Source: Planctomycetota bacterium (GTDB taxonomy: Bacteria > Planctomycetota > Planctomycetia > Planctomycetales > Planctomycetaceae). From it: DNA of 64,000 bases. The stretch's first letter is position 1. Each line of letters starts with the position of its first letter. The notes under the pieces were generated by a model. It was not told the DNA's origin. It saw nothing but the letters and a program-made list of their open reading frames with translations, and did not search any database. The stretch is taken from positions 62,001 through 126,000 of the forward strand of contig JAQCEJ010000002.1 in the NCBI GenBank assembly GCA_027618475.1, given 5' to 3'. Below are positions 5,944 through 17,063 of this stretch, one piece after another. The position numbers and the translations under genes were made by a program.

Positions 5944-7020
5944 GTGAGCATGTCGTCGGCACCCGACATGGTGAATCAGGCCGGCATGTCAAACGTCCCG
6001 GTCGGGGAACCTCGGCATAAGACGTGGAAGACGGTGCTCCCGAGTTGGCTCCTATCCGCCGTTGTTCACGCGGCGATCGCAGCGCTGATGATCTGGTTGA
6101 TGCGCCCTCAGACTACGGGAGGTATTGGAGACAACGAGTCCGATTTTCGCAATGTCGGACTATTTGTCGTTCCTGCAGCACCTGAGGCAGGATCCGAAAC
6201 GGAATCGGAAACGCAAAACGAAACGCTGGAGCCGGTCGAAAGTCAGTCGTTGCTGATCCCATCGAAGTTGTCTCAGGAGTTGCCTGCGTTATCGAATACC
6301 CTTCCTGTCGAATTGCCGGAATTAAAAAAGCCGTCGCAAGTATTAGGACCAGGGCGAGTGGGTGATCCGCTGGCGACCAGCGCGAACGATCCCGACGATT
6401 TGATTCGCCCTAACGGCCGGCCGAACAAAGCGGCAGGTTCGTCGCATCATGGGGAGTCGGCCTCGGTGAAGTTTTTTGATGCCGAAGGAAATGGGAGCCG
6501 ATTTGTTTTCGTAATCGATTCGTCGAGCAGCATGGCCGAGTTTAATGCGATGCGGATGGCAAAAGCACAGTTGATGGCGAGTCTGCAGCAGATACAGAAT
6601 GATCAAGAGTTTCAGATAATTTTCTATAATACCGAGTATCGCTCGCTGACGGTGAGAAACGATCCGCCGCATATGATGCCGGCAACATCGATCAATCGCG
6701 TGCTGGCGGGTACGTTTATCGACGCGGTGCAGCCGACCGGCGGAACAATCCATAAACCGGCGCTTGAGTTGGCTCTGTCATTCAAACCAGATGTTATTTT
6801 TCTATTGACCGACGCTGGCCAACCGGTATTGGGGCCGAAGGAATTACAGGAAATCAAAAATATCAACCGCGGAAAAACAAAGATCCACACTATCGAATTC
6901 GGCGAGAGAGCACAGCTTCGGTCAAACGATCCCCAAGCCGACAACTTTCTAATAAAACTGGCGCGTCAGAACGGCGGCACGTATGTGTATCGCGACGTGC
7001 GGGATTTTCAACAGCGTTAA
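5944..7020 (+). CDS. TonB-like membrane-anchored protein with von Willebrand factor A domain
   Basis: A cytoplasmic N-terminus is followed by one membrane helix (about residues 34-52) containing SAVVH, an SxxxH pattern like the functional Ser/His pair of the TonB transmembrane helix. A Glu/Pro-rich periplasmic linker reaches to about residue 175. A VWA domain follows with a complete MIDAS: DSSSS near residue 196, TGGT near residue 263 and the TD pair in LLTDAG. Starts are possible at GTG 5944 or ATG 5950. Three genes downstream lie TolQ/ExbB and two ExbD genes, so a proton-motive-force-driven motor acting on a VWA domain is inferred. Family homology supports the VWA call; the TonB analogy is motif-based. 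Confidence 0.75.
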   Translation: MSMSSAPDMVNQAGMSNVPVGEPRHKTWKTVLPSWLLSAVVHAAIAALMIWLMRPQTTGGIGDNESDFRNVGLFVVPAAPEAGSETESETQNETLEPVESQSLLIPSKLSQELPALSNTLPVELPELKKPSQVLGPGRVGDPLATSANDPDDLIRPNGRPNKAAGSSHHGESASVKFFDAEGNGSRFVFVIDSSSSMAEFNAMRMAKAQLMASLQQIQNDQEFQIIFYNTEYRSLTVRNDPPHMMPATSINRVLAGTFIDAVQPTGGTIHKPALELALSFKPDVIFLLTDAGQPVLGPKELQEIKNINRGKTKIHTIEFGERAQLRSNDPQADNFLIKLARQNGGTYVYRDVRDFQQR

Positions 7021-10346: not shown

Positions 10347-10502
10347 TTGAAATGTACGTCTCGAAAAACCGCGTCGCGTGAATGGTCTGTCATCACCGAT
10401 CGAGGATGGCAACGGATCGATTCGTCCTTTGATGAAAATGACTTGATTCCCTATCAGTCCACCGTCGTAGGTTGGATTGAAGAACGAAAGCAAACGCAAT
10501 GA
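10347..10502 (+). CDS. possible short ORF translationally coupled to nuoH
   Basis: An open frame runs from 10302 to the TGA at 10500-10502, which overlaps the nuoH ATG (10499) in an ATGA arrangement typical of coupled genes. The only plausible start is TTG at 10347, giving 51 residues with protein-like composition (for example SREWSVITDRGWQRI and VVGWIEERKQTQ). No ribosome site is evident. It could be a genuine small gene, the tail of a decayed gene (nuoI and other nuo genes are missing here), or chance. Confidence 0.25.
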   Translation: MKCTSRKTASREWSVITDRGWQRIDSSFDENDLIPYQSTVVGWIEERKQTQ

Positions 10503-11845
10503 TGACGACGTTGGCAGCATCAACGCTCGCCGAATTCATGAACGGCTATGTTTCGCCCGAGCTGGCCTTAATGCTGGCGGCGCTATTTCATGCCGGAGTG
10601 CTGTTGCTGGTTTTTGCTCATGCGGCGTTAATTTTTATCTGGCTCGAACGTAAGGTTTCGGGCCGAATTCAAGACCGTCTGGGGCCGACACGCTGCGGCG
10701 GGAGGTTTGGTTGGGCGCAAGGTCTTGCTGATGGAATTAAACTCATTCAAAAAGAAGACCTCATCCCCCGCGATGCGGATGCTTTTTTGTTTCGGCTTGC
10801 CCCGTATCTGGCTTGTATCGCGTCGTTCGGCGGTTTCATGGTACTGCCGTTTGCAGCCGACTGGGTCGCGGTCAATCTCGATACCGGTTTGTTTCTGCTC
10901 TTCGCGATTCTGTCGCTCGAAGTGCTGGGGATTGTGCTCGCCGGCTATTCTAGCGGTTCGAAGTGGTCACTGTTCGGCGGAATGCGTGAAGCGGCCCAGA
11001 TGGTAAGTTATGAAATTCCTCTGGCGATCTGTGGCTTGATTCCTATCGTTGCCGCCGGAACGCTGAACTTGACGGATGTTGGCCAAATGCAGGTCGGGCA
11101 TTTCGGGAACTGGTTCCTGTTTCACGATCCATTTACTTTTTTTGCGTTTTTCGTGTATTTCACTGTGGCTACGGCGGGCTGCAAGCGAGCCCCATTCGAC
11201 CTCGCCGAGGCCGAGAGCGAACTCGTGGGCGGCTTTCATACCGAATACAGCGGGATGCGCTGGTCTTATTTCTTTATGGCCGAGTATGCCAGCATGCTGT
11301 TGGTCAGCGGTGTGGCGACGCTACTGTTTCTTGGGGGCTGGAGTACCGGGCTTCCGTTCATCGACCAGCCGATTTTTGTCGACCTCAAGAGTTGGAACCC
11401 CGGCATCGGTCCTGAAGGGTTTGTGCTTGGCAGCTACATCAGCAATTTGATCGGCATGTCGGTCTTCTTGCTGAAATCGTCGTTCCTGGTCTTCGTACAG
11501 ATTTGGGTCCGTTGGACTTTCCCCCGCTTGCGGATCGATCAGGTGATGACCACCTGCTTGAAATATCTTGTGCCGATGAGCTGCTTTCTGTTCCTCGGTG
11601 CCACTATGTGGCCATTGCTGATGGCGATGGGAAAAGGTCAGAAGACGACGATCTGGCCACAGCCGCTCGGAGACCGGACGGTACAGGTCCACGAGCACGT
11701 ACTGCATCCGATAAACGAACCGAAGATTCAAATTGCAGATCGTGGCGAACAGACGGTTGACTTTTCCGAGACGCCAGTTATCGCGAAGGAAGCAATATTG
11801 ACCGAGGCGATGCACTCGCCATCGGAGCAAGGGATACAGCCATGA
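10499..11845 (+). CDS. nuoH: NADH-quinone oxidoreductase subunit H
   Basis: Membrane subunit at the joint of complex I, contributing to the quinone-binding chamber. The conserved loop GWAQGLADGIKLIQKED (about residues 75-91) and the DLAEAESELVGGFHTEYSG loop (about residues 233-251) are diagnostic. About eight membrane helices are visible. The protein is about 448 residues against the usual 330-350; the surplus is a polar C-terminal tail from about residue 380. The stop overlaps the start of nuoJ by 4 bp, leaving no nuoI between them, unlike the common H-I-J order. Confidence 0.95.
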   Translation: MMTTLAASTLAEFMNGYVSPELALMLAALFHAGVLLLVFAHAALIFIWLERKVSGRIQDRLGPTRCGGRFGWAQGLADGIKLIQKEDLIPRDADAFLFRLAPYLACIASFGGFMVLPFAADWVAVNLDTGLFLLFAILSLEVLGIVLAGYSSGSKWSLFGGMREAAQMVSYEIPLAICGLIPIVAAGTLNLTDVGQMQVGHFGNWFLFHDPFTFFAFFVYFTVATAGCKRAPFDLAEAESELVGGFHTEYSGMRWSYFFMAEYASMLLVSGVATLLFLGGWSTGLPFIDQPIFVDLKSWNPGIGPEGFVLGSYISNLIGMSVFLLKSSFLVFVQIWVRWTFPRLRIDQVMTTCLKYLVPMSCFLFLGATMWPLLMAMGKGQKTTIWPQPLGDRTVQVHEHVLHPINEPKIQIADRGEQTVDFSETPVIAKEAILTEAMHSPSEQGIQP

Positions 11846-12462
11846 ATGGTGGGCAAGTTTTGTTCGGCATATTTGCATTGTTGACCTGTGGAGGAGCTGT
11901 GGCTGTGGCTTTGACGCAGAACGTCGTCCGTATGGCATTTTGGTTGATCGTCTCGCTTGGCTCGGCGTCAGGACTGTTTTTTCTGCTGAATGCCGATTTC
12001 GTAGGGGCGACGCAACTTCTGATTTACGTCGGTGGCACAGTGGTGCTGCTGATCTTCGGCGTCATGCTGACGACATCGGGTCCGTTATTGAAAATTCCTT
12101 CTTCTCCGGGGGAGTTGATTCAATCGGCGGTGGTCGGCGTGCTGTTTATCTCGATGTTCTTTTTCACCGTATGGTCAGTCGATTGGGAACATGTTGCCAA
12201 TACGGCGCGCGTCCACGATTCCACCACCGATACGGTCGCGTTGCAGAATGATACGACGGGTCGACCGATCGGAATGGCTTTTCTGGGGGTGCGTCCCGAT
12301 CGCGATCTGGGTGCCGCCGAAGGACAGCCCTTGTCGACGGGGTATTTTCTTCCGTTTGAAATTGTTTCGATGCATCTGCTGGTCGTCCTGATCGGTGCGG
12401 CCTATCTCGCGCGAGCGAAACGGCAAATCACCACCGCCGAAAGTAGGAGCGAAGTGGTGTAA
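11842..12462 (+). CDS. nuoJ: NADH-quinone oxidoreductase subunit J
   Basis: Complex I membrane subunit with five predicted helices and the typical N-terminal FWLIVSLGSASGLFFLLNADFVGATQLLIYVGG core (residues 34-66), where the conserved helix-3 region includes FVGATQLLIYVGGTVV. Length 206. The ATG overlaps the nuoH stop, indicating translational coupling. A polar loop at about residues 112-155 lengthens the region between the last helices. Ends 73 bp before nuoK. Confidence 0.92.
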   Translation: MNGGQVLFGIFALLTCGGAVAVALTQNVVRMAFWLIVSLGSASGLFFLLNADFVGATQLLIYVGGTVVLLIFGVMLTTSGPLLKIPSSPGELIQSAVVGVLFISMFFFTVWSVDWEHVANTARVHDSTTDTVALQNDTTGRPIGMAFLGVRPDRDLGAAEGQPLSTGYFLPFEIVSMHLLVVLIGAAYLARAKRQITTAESRSEVV

Positions 12463-12535
12463 AACGCCGACGAATCGGAATCGATCCAAACGATGTCACT
12501 TAGTAGGTCGTAGGCGATGAAGTTAAAGGTGAAGT

Positions 12536-12847
12536 ATGGAAGGCGTTGATCTGAAGTTGTTTCTCCTTGTGGGAGCTGTGTTGTTTGTGTGCGGAGTCAT
12601 CTGCATGACGAGCAAACGCAACGGCATCGGTGTACTGATCGGCGTCGAACTGGTGTTGAACGCGGCCAATTTGAATTTCGTCGCTTTCTCGCGATACACG
12701 CCCTTGGGACTCGACGGGCAAATCATGGCATTATTCGTGATCGTACTGGCAGCGGCCGAAGCAGCCGTTGCCCTGGCGATCGCACTCAATTTTTATAATA
12801 ACCATCTGACGATCGACGTCGATCGCGCCGATGAACTACGGGGTTGA
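12536..12847 (+). CDS. nuoK: NADH-quinone oxidoreductase subunit K
   Basis: Small three-helix subunit of the proton-pumping arm, 103 residues as expected. It shows VELVLNAANLNFVAFSRY with the conserved helix-2 Glu, and the second conserved Glu in AAAEAAVALAIALN of helix 3, both part of the charged axis. Followed 3 bp later by nuoL. Confidence 0.95.
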   Translation: MEGVDLKLFLLVGAVLFVCGVICMTSKRNGIGVLIGVELVLNAANLNFVAFSRYTPLGLDGQIMALFVIVLAAAEAAVALAIALNFYNNHLTIDVDRADELRG

Positions 12848-12850
12848 TTC

Positions 12851-15349
12851 ATGTTGCTGGCTGATGCTTCAGTTTCATCATTGGGAAATACCCTGGCGAT
12901 CTTGCTGGGGATTGCCTGCTTGTTGCCGCTGTGCGGATTTCTGATCGAAATCTTCGCCGGGTATTGGAGCGATCGTCTCAGCAAAACCCCTGCGCTAATG
13001 GCCGTCGGCTGTATCGGCGGTGGATTTGCCTGTAGTCTACTCGCCCTGATTCTGTGGGGAAACGCCACGTGTTGGACGGCACTTAAGGCCGATGAACACG
13101 GAGCGGCACATCATTCCGTCCGAGACGACTCTGCCGAAACTCAACTGGCGCTTGCCGACGAGGAGTTGCATGCAGACGAGCATTCGTCAGCCGGAGCCGA
13201 CGACCACCATGCCTTTCATCCCGAAGTTGAACATCACGTTGCATCTGAAGAAGGGCACGACGACCATGCCGCCGAGGGACTCGTCCCGGCTCATGCGGTT
13301 TTCAGCGGCACGATTTATCGGTTAGCGAAATTCGGCAATCTGGATATTACTGTCGATTATTACATCGACAGTTTGACTCTGGTGATGTTTGTGATGGTCA
13401 CATTCATCGCGACGTGTATTCATATCTTCGCCATCGGTTACATGAGCGAAGAACTGACTCATGAATACGTCGATCACGCCGTACACATGTCCGACGGTCA
13501 CCATCTGCATCGACCGGGGCGGTTTTACCGTTTCTTCGCGTACATGTCTCTGTTCTGTTTTTCGATGCTCGGGCTGGTCTACTCCGGCAGCATTTTTCTC
13601 GTCTTCGTCTTCTGGGAACTCGTCGGCATCTGCAGTTATCTGCTGATCGGGTTTTACGTCGAACGAAAGTCGGCGAACGTCGCGGCGAACAAAGCCTTCA
13701 TCATGAACCGCGTCGGCGACTTCGGATTTCTGATCGGTCTGATGATTCTGTGGACGTCGTTCGGCACCTTTCGTTTCGCCGAAGAGATCGACGACCACGG
13801 TCAGGCACACGCCGGTCTGTTTCACATGGTTCGCGGCGACAAGGGATTGATGAGGGTGTCGTCGGAGACAGGCGACGTCGTGATGTGGGGAGAACACGAA
13901 GAAACGCTGTTGGACGAAAACGACCAGCCGCGGACGATTCCATATTATCTCCTCGTCATTGCCGGTCTGGGGATTTTTGCGGGGTGCGTCGGCAAGAGCG
14001 CACAGTTTCCGCTACAGACGTGGTTACCCGATGCGATGGAAGGTCCAACGCCGGTCTCGGCTCTGGTGCACTCAGCGACGATGGTCGCGGCGGGTGTCTA
14101 TCTCGCGGGACGATTTTTCCCGATGTTTACAACCGATGTGCTGCTGGTGATTGCCTACACCGGTTGCATAACGCTGTTTGTTGCCGCGACAATTGCGATT
14201 GTGGCAACTGACATCAAGCGGGTACTTGCCTATTCCACGATCAGCCAGTTGGGTTACATGATGCTGGCGATTGGCGTAGGGGGCTGGGGAGCCGGTTTGT
14301 TTCACTTGATTACACACGCCTTCTTCAAATCGTTGATGTTCCTGGCATCGGGAAGTGTGATTTTTGGTTGCCATCACGAACAGGAAATGCCCAAGATGGG
14401 GGGGCTATGGCGGAAGATGCCGATCACTGCTCTTACGATGCTGGTCGGCGTGATCGCGATCGCCGGTTTGGCGATACCCGTAACGATCATGGGGGCAAGA
14501 ATTGCATTTTCCGGGTATCATTCGAAAGATGCGATCGTCGCGACGGCCCTTGCCTTTACCGAGGCCAACAGCATGCATTTTCTGTTGTTTCTGACACCGT
14601 TGGTGACGGCGGGGATCACGGCGTTTTACATGTTCCGTCTCTGGTTCTACACCTTCGCGGGGGATCCACGGGATAAGCACGTCTACGATCATGCTCACGA
14701 AACGCCCAAGGTCATGACGATTCCCCTGTTGGTATTAAGTCTGTTCGCAGCAGGATGTGCCATCGGCGGCGAAGAGGGAGTGTTGTACCGTCTGTTGAGC
14801 AACAGCGAACCGGTCGGTGTCGCTGCAGGACGTATGTCTGGTGCCGGAGGTATCAGCTTACCCAGCCACGAAGCGATTCATCTGGTGCATGCCCAGGCCG
14901 GGACGTGGGCCTTGATCGTTGCCGTATTGGGGGCGTTCCTTGCTTACGTATTTTATGGTGCTCGCTGGGTTAATCCGACGGAAGTCGGACAGAGTTTCCC
15001 CCGACTGTATCGGTTTCTCGTCGAAAAATGGCAGTTTGATGCGTTATACGATGCGATGTTCGTACGACCGGTTCGCATCATCGCGGGCTGGTTCGTGGTG
15101 TTCGATCGCGTGGTGCTCGATGGTTTCTTACATGCGGCGGCGAGTTCGGTCGTCCACATTTCGAAATGGGACCGCCGTTTCGACGAATCGATTATCGACG
15201 GCTTCGTGAATCTCATGGCCAGTGTGACGTTTGGCATCGGACGATCGTTCAAGAAAGTGCAGACGGGTATGCTGAGGCAATACATCACCTTTATTGCATT
15301 AGGTGTATTGGCGTTATTTGTGCTGATGTTGAGTTTCTTTCCGAATTAG
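12851..15349 (+). CDS. nuoL: NADH-quinone oxidoreductase subunit L with His-rich insert
   Basis: Large antiporter-like subunit of complex I with the lateral helix at the C-terminus. The core motifs FWELVGICSYLLIGFY (about residue 256), LQTWLPDAMEGPTPVSALVHSATMV (about 395-419, in the pump channel) and AYSTISQLGYMMLAIG are present. Length is 832 against roughly 610-650. Much of the surplus is an acidic, His-rich insert at about residues 80-150 (13 His) between the first helices, plus loops near 190-210 and 310-360. The gene follows nuoK by 3 bp. Confidence 0.93.
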   Translation: MLLADASVSSLGNTLAILLGIACLLPLCGFLIEIFAGYWSDRLSKTPALMAVGCIGGGFACSLLALILWGNATCWTALKADEHGAAHHSVRDDSAETQLALADEELHADEHSSAGADDHHAFHPEVEHHVASEEGHDDHAAEGLVPAHAVFSGTIYRLAKFGNLDITVDYYIDSLTLVMFVMVTFIATCIHIFAIGYMSEELTHEYVDHAVHMSDGHHLHRPGRFYRFFAYMSLFCFSMLGLVYSGSIFLVFVFWELVGICSYLLIGFYVERKSANVAANKAFIMNRVGDFGFLIGLMILWTSFGTFRFAEEIDDHGQAHAGLFHMVRGDKGLMRVSSETGDVVMWGEHEETLLDENDQPRTIPYYLLVIAGLGIFAGCVGKSAQFPLQTWLPDAMEGPTPVSALVHSATMVAAGVYLAGRFFPMFTTDVLLVIAYTGCITLFVAATIAIVATDIKRVLAYSTISQLGYMMLAIGVGGWGAGLFHLITHAFFKSLMFLASGSVIFGCHHEQEMPKMGGLWRKMPITALTMLVGVIAIAGLAIPVTIMGARIAFSGYHSKDAIVATALAFTEANSMHFLLFLTPLVTAGITAFYMFRLWFYTFAGDPRDKHVYDHAHETPKVMTIPLLVLSLFAAGCAIGGEEGVLYRLLSNSEPVGVAAGRMSGAGGISLPSHEAIHLVHAQAGTWALIVAVLGAFLAYVFYGARWVNPTEVGQSFPRLYRFLVEKWQFDALYDAMFVRPVRIIAGWFVVFDRVVLDGFLHAAASSVVHISKWDRRFDESIIDGFVNLMASVTFGIGRSFKKVQTGMLRQYITFIALGVLALFVLMLSFFPN

Positions 15350-15455
15350 TAATGTGGCCATTCGATGCGAAATGGCCGTTGAAAAGATATGTTTTCGAAA
15401 TCTGTACCGGGTCTCGCTAAGAGAGCGGTAAAGCTACTGAGGGAATCGACGGAAA

Positions 15456-17063
15456 ATGAGTGACATCGTGTTGTTGACCTCGATTATTTTCACGCCCACG
15501 ATTGGCTCGATCGTCTTGTTGTTGTTTCATCCGAAGTCCGAAGAGTCGATGAAAAACTGGGGGCTGTTCGTCACCGCCGTCACGTTCGTGTTGACTCTGT
15601 TCCTGCTCAAAGACTTCGACTCCACGCAAGCGGGGATGCAATTCACAAGCACGATTCCGTGGATTCCACATTGGGGCGTCAATTACCAGCTCGGAGTCGA
15701 TGGCATTAGCCTGCCGTTGGTGCTACTGACCAGTCTGATCAGCATGCTCGCGATGATGGCGTCGTGGAGCATTACAAAACAGGTTAAAGGTTACCTGATG
15801 CTGTTCCTGCTGCTCGAGACCGGAATGCTCGGTGTCTTTATGGCACTCGATTTCTTTCTGTTCTACGTCTTCTGGGAAGTCATGCTCCTGCCGATGTATT
15901 TTCTCATCGGTATCTGGGGAGGACCGCGAAAGGAATATGCGGCAATCAAGTTCTTTCTGTATACGCTCGTTGGCGGCGTATTGATGTTTATCGCCATGCT
16001 AATGTTCTACTTCGGTAGTGCCGACTCCTCTCAGGGCATTCTCCCAACGTTTGATCTGCTGAGACTTGCCGAAATCGGCCAGGGACTGGTTCCCGGAGTG
16101 ACGTTCAGTCCAACGGTGCAGTCGATTGCCTTCGTGCTGTTGTTCATCGGCTTTGCGATCAAGTTGCCATCGTTGCCATTTCATACGTGGTTGCCCGACG
16201 CCCACGTCGAAGCCCCGACGCCGATCAGTATGATTCTGGCCGGTGTGCTCTTGAAAATGGGAGGATATGGCATCCTGCGAATTGCATTTCCGCTCTGTCC
16301 ATACGGTGCCCAATGGGGGGCATACGCTTTGGTTCTCATCGGTGTCGTCAGTATTCTTTACGGTGCGTTTGCTGCAATGGCTCAGACCGATTTCAAACGA
16401 CTGGTCGCTTATAGTTCGGTCAGCCACATGGGATATGTGCTTGTCGGTATGGCGGTCTGGACGATTGGAGCCGACGGAGTGACGGTCGGACGCGATTACT
16501 GGGTGCAGGGAATGAATGCGGCGATGTTCCAGATGCTGGGCCACGGAATATCATCGGCCGGCATGTTCTTTATCGTTGGTGTGATTTATGACCGCGTTCA
16601 TCACCGCGATCTCAATAAGTTCGGCGGACTCGCCGGCTTGATGCCGCTCTACACCGGTTTTGCTGCGGGCTTGTTTTTCGCGGGTCTCGGATTGCCAGGC
16701 TTGTGCGGCTTCATCGGTGAAGTTTTCGTGACGCTGAGCGCGTGGAATTATTCGAAACTTCTCGCGGTGTTCGTCGCGTCGGGGGTAATTCTGACGGCAG
16801 GATACATATTGTGGACAATCCAGCGCGTCTTTTTCGGACCGGAATATAAGGGGCCACACCCGGAAGCCCTCACGCAGATGAACGGACGCGAAATTGCGAT
16901 CGCATCGGTGCTGTTGTTCTTCGCTGTGGTGTTGGGAGTGTTCCCAAATACGATGTTCAGCCTGATGGGGGCTTCGATGGAACAGTTAGTATCGGCGATG
17001 GATATCGGCTATCAGAACGCCGTTCAGACCGTCAATGACATACAAACGACGATGCTGAAGTAA
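15456..17063 (+). CDS. nuoM: NADH-quinone oxidoreductase subunit M
   Basis: Antiporter-like proton-pumping subunit of complex I, 535 residues. Diagnostic segments: LGVDGISLPLVLLT near residue 78, FYVFWEVMLLPMYFLIGIWG near 134 with the conserved helix-5 Glu, LPFHTWLPDAHVEAPTPISMILAG near 242, and AYSSVSHMGYVLVGMA near 322. About 14 membrane helices. Separated from nuoL by 106 bp and followed 56 bp later by nuoN. Confidence 0.95.
   Translation: MSDIVLLTSIIFTPTIGSIVLLLFHPKSEESMKNWGLFVTAVTFVLTLFLLKDFDSTQAGMQFTSTIPWIPHWGVNYQLGVDGISLPLVLLTSLISMLAMMASWSITKQVKGYLMLFLLLETGMLGVFMALDFFLFYVFWEVMLLPMYFLIGIWGGPRKEYAAIKFFLYTLVGGVLMFIAMLMFYFGSADSSQGILPTFDLLRLAEIGQGLVPGVTFSPTVQSIAFVLLFIGFAIKLPSLPFHTWLPDAHVEAPTPISMILAGVLLKMGGYGILRIAFPLCPYGAQWGAYALVLIGVVSILYGAFAAMAQTDFKRLVAYSSVSHMGYVLVGMAVWTIGADGVTVGRDYWVQGMNAAMFQMLGHGISSAGMFFIVGVIYDRVHHRDLNKFGGLAGLMPLYTGFAAGLFFAGLGLPGLCGFIGEVFVTLSAWNYSKLLAVFVASGVILTAGYILWTIQRVFFGPEYKGPHPEALTQMNGREIAIASVLLFFAVVLGVFPNTMFSLMGASMEQLVSAMDIGYQNAVQTVNDIQTTMLK

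Follow-up and report, generated by a model that had tools for sequence, protein, structure and literature searches.

Several described systems come close to the locus examined here. In the available part of a cryo-EM study of E. coli TonB-ExbBD and TolAQR (PMC12215075), the Ser and His of the TonB/TolA motif touch ExbB Ser34 and Trp38, equivalent to TolQ Ser28 and Trp32, while the later Leu and Ser of the SHLS motif are less conserved in Ton. The strand formed by TonB residues 45–51 binds ExbD in the E. coli structure, and TolA residues 50–56 are predicted to bind TolR (PMC12215075). By the numbering of that paper, as far as its available text goes, the TonB box begins at H+25 and the TolA box at H+28.

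Force transducers that combine an SHLS motif with a vWA domain were described in 2025 (Williams-Jones et al., PMC12204202), and AF3 modelling in the accessible portion of that work places the helix of such proteins at the same motor site. A 2026 review (PMC12905483) cites the paper, with vWA unmentioned in the portion of its text available. Since SHLS-vWA transducers have already been described (PMC12204202, available text), the locus reported here is a further member of a published type. It lies in a planctomycete DNA stretch of 64,000 nt, referred to below as the window.

Gene cluster and the VWA protein

Open reading frames and a profile search of the window revealed five genes on one strand, in the order VWA, TPR, ExbB, ExbD, ExbD (Table 1). 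The original prediction, made from the sequence of the VWA gene and its surroundings, had named the ExbB homologue and both ExbDs, and these were confirmed; the TPR gene, a regular part of the cluster, was missing from it. The exact start of P0001 is uncertain because in-frame ATGs occur at codons 3, 9 and 15.

Table 1. Positions of the cluster genes and of the parts of the VWA protein in the window.
Feature	Position (nt)	Strand	Details
VWA transducer candidate, P0001	5944..7020	+	358 aa; GTG start; ORF call, Pfam, AlphaFold2
Transmembrane helix of P0001, residues 34–52	6043..6099	+	S38 at 6055–6057, H42 at 6067–6069
Candidate motor box RNVGLFVV, P0001 residues 69–76	6148..6171	+	about 27–34 residues after H42
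VWA domain of P0001, residues 174–355	6463..7008	+	complete MIDAS D192/S194/S196/T268/D290
TPR protein, P0005	7082..8164	+	360 aa; profile matches, fold model, orthologue adjoining VWA in many loci
ExbB/TolQ-type motor subunit, P0002	8247..9017	+	PF01618, 5.4e-32
First ExbD, P0003	9024..9476	+	TTG start; PF02472, 8e-25; helix Asp in LIDIV
Second, divergent ExbD, P0004	9509..9982	+	PF02472, 9.9e-17; helix Asp in MIDVV

The helix of P0001, SWLLSAVVHAAIAALMIWLM, carries S38-A-V-V-H42, so that the SAVVH helix of the original prediction is borne out. Its likeness to TonB extends to the Ser and His; the positions of the SHLS Leu and second Ser are occupied by M49 and M53. A Pfam search found no TonB_C (PF03544) in P0001. 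The linker (residues 54–172), predicted to be Pro/Glu-rich, does contain these residues (14 Pro, 12 Glu), and its 27% P+E+D is not extreme. The proposed VWA domain with full MIDAS was recovered: VWA_3 (Pfam) matches residues 187–348 at 8.7e-8, and the five MIDAS residues are all present and are invariant in alignments A1 (37 rows) and A2 (66 rows). Rows were picked after an SxxxH filter, so the invariance of S38 and H42 in A1 and A2 is by construction, while that of the MIDAS residues is unaffected. In an AlphaFold2 model of P0001 (66 sequences), helix 34–52 is confident, the linker is disordered (pLDDT about 50) and residues 174–355 adopt a VWA fold with pLDDT mostly above 90. Its nearest solved folds, by fold search, are ordinary VWA domains (ITIH, BatB, integrin I). 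Neither the VWA nor the TPR protein had a useful match in a PDB sequence search.

The TPR protein P0005 is probably secreted. Its model (mean pLDDT 91.6) has an N-terminal helix, a five-strand beta domain (residues 44–92) and then TPR helices. The C-terminal part resembles YbgF/CpoB (TIGR02795, E 5e-11), at 43 bits and therefore below the curated cut-off of 90. The fold search returned generic TPR proteins, with a C. jejuni flagellar periplasmic scaffold chain as a weak match at rank 4 (TM 0.38).

An Ig-like gene (P0006, 4444–5847) lies upstream of the VWA gene and encodes an N-terminal helix and a Pro/Glu-rich stretch without SxxxH. It was rejected as a member of the system because its closest homologues sit elsewhere in their genomes; a relative adjoins the cluster at only two other loci (L048, L056), on the opposite strand. 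Directly downstream of the cluster, window positions 10499–17063 hold respiratory-type genes, which we take to be of the respiratory complex I (Nuo) type, and relatives of these are found near the cluster in up to seven loci.

We read P0001 as a force transducer of the TonB/TolA kind whose effector is a VWA domain, at a probability of roughly 0.75. By domain content, it is neither TonB nor TolA.

Occurrence in related genomes

The window genome comprises 5.9 Mb in 218 contigs; it gave 8 MotA/ExbB-type and 10 ExbD-type matches, and neither TonB_C nor a receptor plug domain was detected in it. When 79 related genomes were searched with the VWA protein, 75 had a match, and a clear TPR orthologue was present in 54 of the 79. 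TonB_C was found in 18 of these relatives and was not detected in the other 61. VWA and ExbB orthologues occurred together in 59 genomes, VWA alone in 8, ExbB alone in 1 and neither in 11, by cut-offs of our own choice and with phylogeny uncontrolled, as the absences include all of one family. Genomes tend to have either all or none of the close VWA, TPR and ExbB orthologues, and VWA and ExbB go together even where their genes are apart. Such a separation was seen in several genomes, for example with VWA and ExbB on different contigs. A phylum-wide search gave matches in 136 of 149 genomes, and outside the class most of the matches listed cover the VWA part only.

TolB_N was found in none of the 40 genomes searched, the window genome included. 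This absence, the wide distribution of the VWA and TPR genes and the YbgF/CpoB-like C-terminus of P0005 (below cut-off) fit a more specific proposal, a functional variant of the transducer explanation, in which the VWA system replaces Tol-Pal and a pulled VWA, with the CpoB-like TPR protein, tethers the outer membrane or drives division invagination. However, a missing Pfam TolB_N match leaves room for a divergent TolB, and genomes of one family (f3) seemingly lack close VWA, TPR and ExbB orthologues altogether. A replacement of Tol-Pal is a tentative idea, and we consider it somewhat doubtful.

Conservation of the SxxxH motif and its gene neighbourhood

The first sample comprised 121 VWA loci including the window (80 stretches and the next 40 matches listed). 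Neighbours were counted by profile within 6 kb, and the anchor helix was defined as the 17 consecutive residues of highest hydrophobicity N-terminal to the VWA domain. The original prediction expected the SxxxH pair to be conserved among homologues, and it was present at 104 of the 121 loci; two rows (L145, L087) had no helix, giving 104/119 among the VWA proteins with one. In the ORF of L087 no anchor could be identified. All 42 loci with VWA and TPR had the motif, 32 of these also having ExbB: 29/29 with VWA, TPR, ExbB and ExbD, 3/3 with VWA, TPR and ExbB, and 10/10 with VWA and TPR only. It was found at 9 of 11 VWA-ExbB-ExbD loci without TPR, and at neither of the two loci with ExbB only, both of which have another VWA type. 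Among VWA loci without an ExbB, ExbD or TPR gene within 6 kb, 53 of 66 retained SxxxH, indicating that gene linkage to the motor is not needed for the motif.

A second sample of 80 loci was gathered with a peptide pattern that lies within the VWA domain, and spans Planctomycetaceae, Gimesia, Schlesneria, Rhodopirellula and others. Here, SxxxH was found at 79 of 80 loci, and the one exception is an ORF truncated by the end of its contig; the two samples are not fully independent, as some genomes are common to both. A conserved ExbB neighbourhood had also been anticipated, and VWA occurred with ExbB, ExbD and TPR at 47 of the 80 loci, with TPR only at 11 and with ExbB and ExbD at one. At the remaining 21, none of these genes was in reach, some of the loci being near contig ends.

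Two VWA proteins (L090:6751–7818 and L157:4555–5727) have SxxxN instead of SxxxH, and the gene for the former adjoins ExbB and two ExbDs. Two others (L142:2359–3543 and L144:5058–6257) have an N-terminal GYF-like domain, a poly-Leu helix and an adjoining ExbB gene without SxxxH; these represent a different VWA-motor arrangement. An SxxxH-VWA protein without ExbB, ExbD or TPR within 6 kb is encoded on another contig (C211) of the window genome (L110:6366–7577), and 52 further loci are of the same kind. Such orphan proteins may share a motor in trans. A tree of the 121 VWA domains showed the neighbourhood classes to be clustered without forming single clades, and many orphans fell in separate supported groups; bootstrap values were not yet stable and two very long rows were included, and the tree is used for the statement on orphan grouping only.

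In bacteria, VWA domains commonly serve in adhesion or protein binding. With this in mind, and with many SxxxH-VWA genes having no motor gene nearby, the helix could be a mere signal anchor and the VWA protein a MIDAS adhesion or chaperone protein that sits beside motor genes by chance. Against this, when the letters of the helices were shuffled, SxxxH appeared in a mean of 11.5 of 119 (maximum 24) versus the 104 observed, and the motif is rare elsewhere: of 411 helices from other ORFs (250 aa or longer), 7 carry it; by eye, those seven are unlike N-terminal anchors of the P0001 kind. A fixed membrane His is needless for a simple anchor, and a motor-box-like strand is kept as well, making this explanation unlikely.

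Candidate motor box

Over 51 family proteins, mean strand propensity peaks at H+27/28. In P0001 this is the segment at residues 69–76, where R69 and G72 are at least 90% conserved in A1 and G72 also in A2. The AlphaFold2 model of the lone P0001 chain has no strand at this position, and the support for a motor box therefore comes from sequence only. We regard the propensity peak as the strongest independent point for motor coupling.

ExbB, ExbD and TPR partners

Among PDB chains, TolQ is the closest to P0002. In their alignment, P0002 S38 pairs with TolQ Ser28 and V42 takes the place of TolQ Trp32; the GT and TT pore threonines and the AIPA proline are kept. The contact Ser was present in all 44 aligned VWA-linked ExbBs, and the partner Trp in none (the ExbB of L144 did not align and was left out). 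As a marker of SxxxH partnership the Ser was rejected, being found in 44/44 VWA-linked ExbBs versus 20/24 from loci without a VWA neighbour. With the Ser kept but non-specific and the Trp absent, the ExbB side neither proves nor excludes contact.

The helix Asp pattern was missing from five ExbD rows (3 of 40 for ExbD1, 2 of 37 for ExbD2); one of these (L094) has LLDLV, so that the Asp is present, and the remaining four are long ORFs running from stop to stop. It is very improbable, and by the sequences already largely refuted, that the VWA protein itself serves as the axle, in the manner of the second vWA family of PMC12204202, where an Asp helix replaces TolR in the pentamer: the VWA and ExbB genes do adjoin, but the P0001 helix has no Asp and the cluster encodes two ExbDs that have one.

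Paralogous sets of a related TPR, ExbB and two ExbDs are common (e.g., L178–L187 and L120). The TPR protein most probably acts as a scaffold on the motor side and not as the VWA ligand, since related TPR genes adjoin ExbB-ExbD-ExbD sets with no SxxxH protein nearby. As a ligand it was disfavoured, a related TPR being found at 8 of the 10 paralogous ExbB-ExbD-ExbD loci L178–L187; at these 10 loci, no ORF of at least 150 aa with an SxxxH helix was found. One such TPR-ExbB-ExbD-ExbD set in the window genome (contig C165, L120:1–7016) is preceded by a gene for a TPR protein of 1205 aa, and no SxxxH protein is encoded close to it. An assignment to the anti-phage system Zorya was rejected; PADLOC matches of the ExbB to ZorA were weak and the VWA protein had no match.

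A second SxxxH family with toroid domains

On another contig of the window genome (C53), ExbD adjoins a gene for a 752-aa protein, P0007 (L126:9446–12141), with two helices, the second containing SLLVH, a long linker and a C-terminal squalene-cyclase-like domain (weak matches to PF13243, 6.8e-5, and TIGR01787, 4e-7). Relatives of this alpha/alpha-toroid protein were found in all 79 genomes, many of the matches covering the toroid part only. Of 56 read, 40 had ExbB or ExbD in the locus, and 37 of these had SxxxH; without ExbB/ExbD in the locus it was 11 of 16, and in three of the 16 the ORF encodes no anchor helix. As in the VWA family, strand propensity is highest at H+27/28, with a less sharp peak.

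TPR, ExbB, ExbD and toroid genes occur in a row at nine loci (L246, L252, L254, L255, L256, L257, L258, L260 and L264), seven of which have SxxxH; the motif is missing from L254, and in L260 the helix carries the His without the Ser. Four more loci (L247, L265, L266 and L267) carry TPR, ExbB and toroid. In the window genome the set is split, with TPR-ExbB on contig C109 and ExbD-toroid on C53, and two shorter toroid proteins encoded there have SxxxH (L248, L249), a further one SxxxQ (L250) and another no such motif (L251).

Squalene, hopene, prenyltransferase and toroid are unmentioned in the available text of PMC12204202. In a literature search outside whose coverage lie most subscription papers and all preprints, no paper was found linking ExbD either to planctomycete squalene-hopene cyclase or to the squalene oxidase repeat, and no title on force transducers in planctomycetes other than PMC12204202. 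The SxxxH toroid family with its own TPR-ExbB-ExbD-toroid operon is apparently undescribed so far.

Considering both families, we slightly favour a reading in which the planctomycete TonB-type anchor would be a reusable coupling module, with the toroid proteins as a second type of transducer in their own operon. VWA and toroid paralogues without nearby motors would share a few ExbB/ExbD motors in trans, and the proton-driven envelope work of the window organism would be carried out through at least five SxxxH arms (two VWA, three toroid).

Proposed mechanism and significance

The mechanism proposed for P0001 rests on gene order, the motif, conservation of the MIDAS and of the strand, and the predicted fold; from these we infer the docking, stoichiometry, pulling and class of ligand. 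ExbB would form a pentamer around an axle made by the two ExbDs, perhaps as a heterodimer. The VWA protein would dock on the outside of ExbB through S38 and H42 of its helix, and on the periplasmic ExbD dimer through the strand at residues 69–76. Proton flow would turn the ExbD axle and pull on the flexible linker, and the VWA domain would then tug on, or release, a ligand held via its metal site and situated in the outer membrane or the outer part of the periplasm.

The original prediction of a motor coupled to a VWA domain gains from the conserved SxxxH motif and neighbourhood, neither of the two outcomes that would have contradicted it having been observed, and from the motor-box-like segment; the ExbB side is ambiguous, and the idea has been in print since 2025. 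Points against a transducer are the absence of the Trp in all 44 VWA-linked ExbBs, the contact Ser in 20 of 24 ExbBs that have no VWA neighbour, SxxxH in 53 of 66 VWA proteins far from motor genes, the lone-chain model with no strand at the motor box, the SxxxN protein of L090 beside motor genes, and L087 without an anchor.

Several ExbB/ExbD motors are kept in these organisms though TonB_C and TolB_N mostly or wholly escape detection (61/79 and 40/40 genomes, respectively), and the identity of the motor cargo would show by what means a diderm envelope of this kind receives its energy. The VWA type allows a direct test, in which one His is changed and the envelope function that fails is identified. 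If the toroid type is real, fusion of the TonB anchor to unrelated effector folds would have happened on more than one occasion, and a further group of orphan motors would gain a partner.

Comparison with known systems

The TPH-vWA family of PMC12204202 has in common with this locus a vWA protein adjoining a TolQ-like gene; according to the available text, that family has an Asp in the helix and no ExbD/TolR, whereas here there are two ExbDs and no helix Asp. The helix of P0001, SAVVHAAIAALMIW, resembles that of TolA, SAVLHVILFAALIW (TolA letters as given in the accessible part of PMC12215075). Further likenesses to the Tol system are the closeness of P0002 to TolQ and the YbgF/CpoB-like TPR neighbour, while the lack of a TolB_N match in the 40 genomes, the two ExbDs and the VWA effector set the locus apart. 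With TonB, P0001 shares the SxxxH helix, a strand about 25 residues past the His, a linker, a globular effector and the ExbB and ExbD partners. It differs in having VWA in place of TonB_C, in not keeping the full SHLS and in an ExbB without the Trp, and its genome has no detected TonB_C or receptor plug domain.

The closest match is to the SHLS-vWA transducers of PMC12204202, from which, so far as the available text describes them, P0001 differs in nothing essential. Shared features are the N-terminal SxxxH helix, the disordered linker and the C-terminal vWA domain, and, at the level of the cluster, the TPR gene, a tolQ-like gene and two different tolR-like genes. The motor box predicted after the helix in that work has a counterpart in P0001, as judged from its amino acid sequence. 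Relative to the part of PMC12204202 available, the present analysis adds the cross-genome counts, the paralogues that have no motor gene close by, and the family of toroid proteins.
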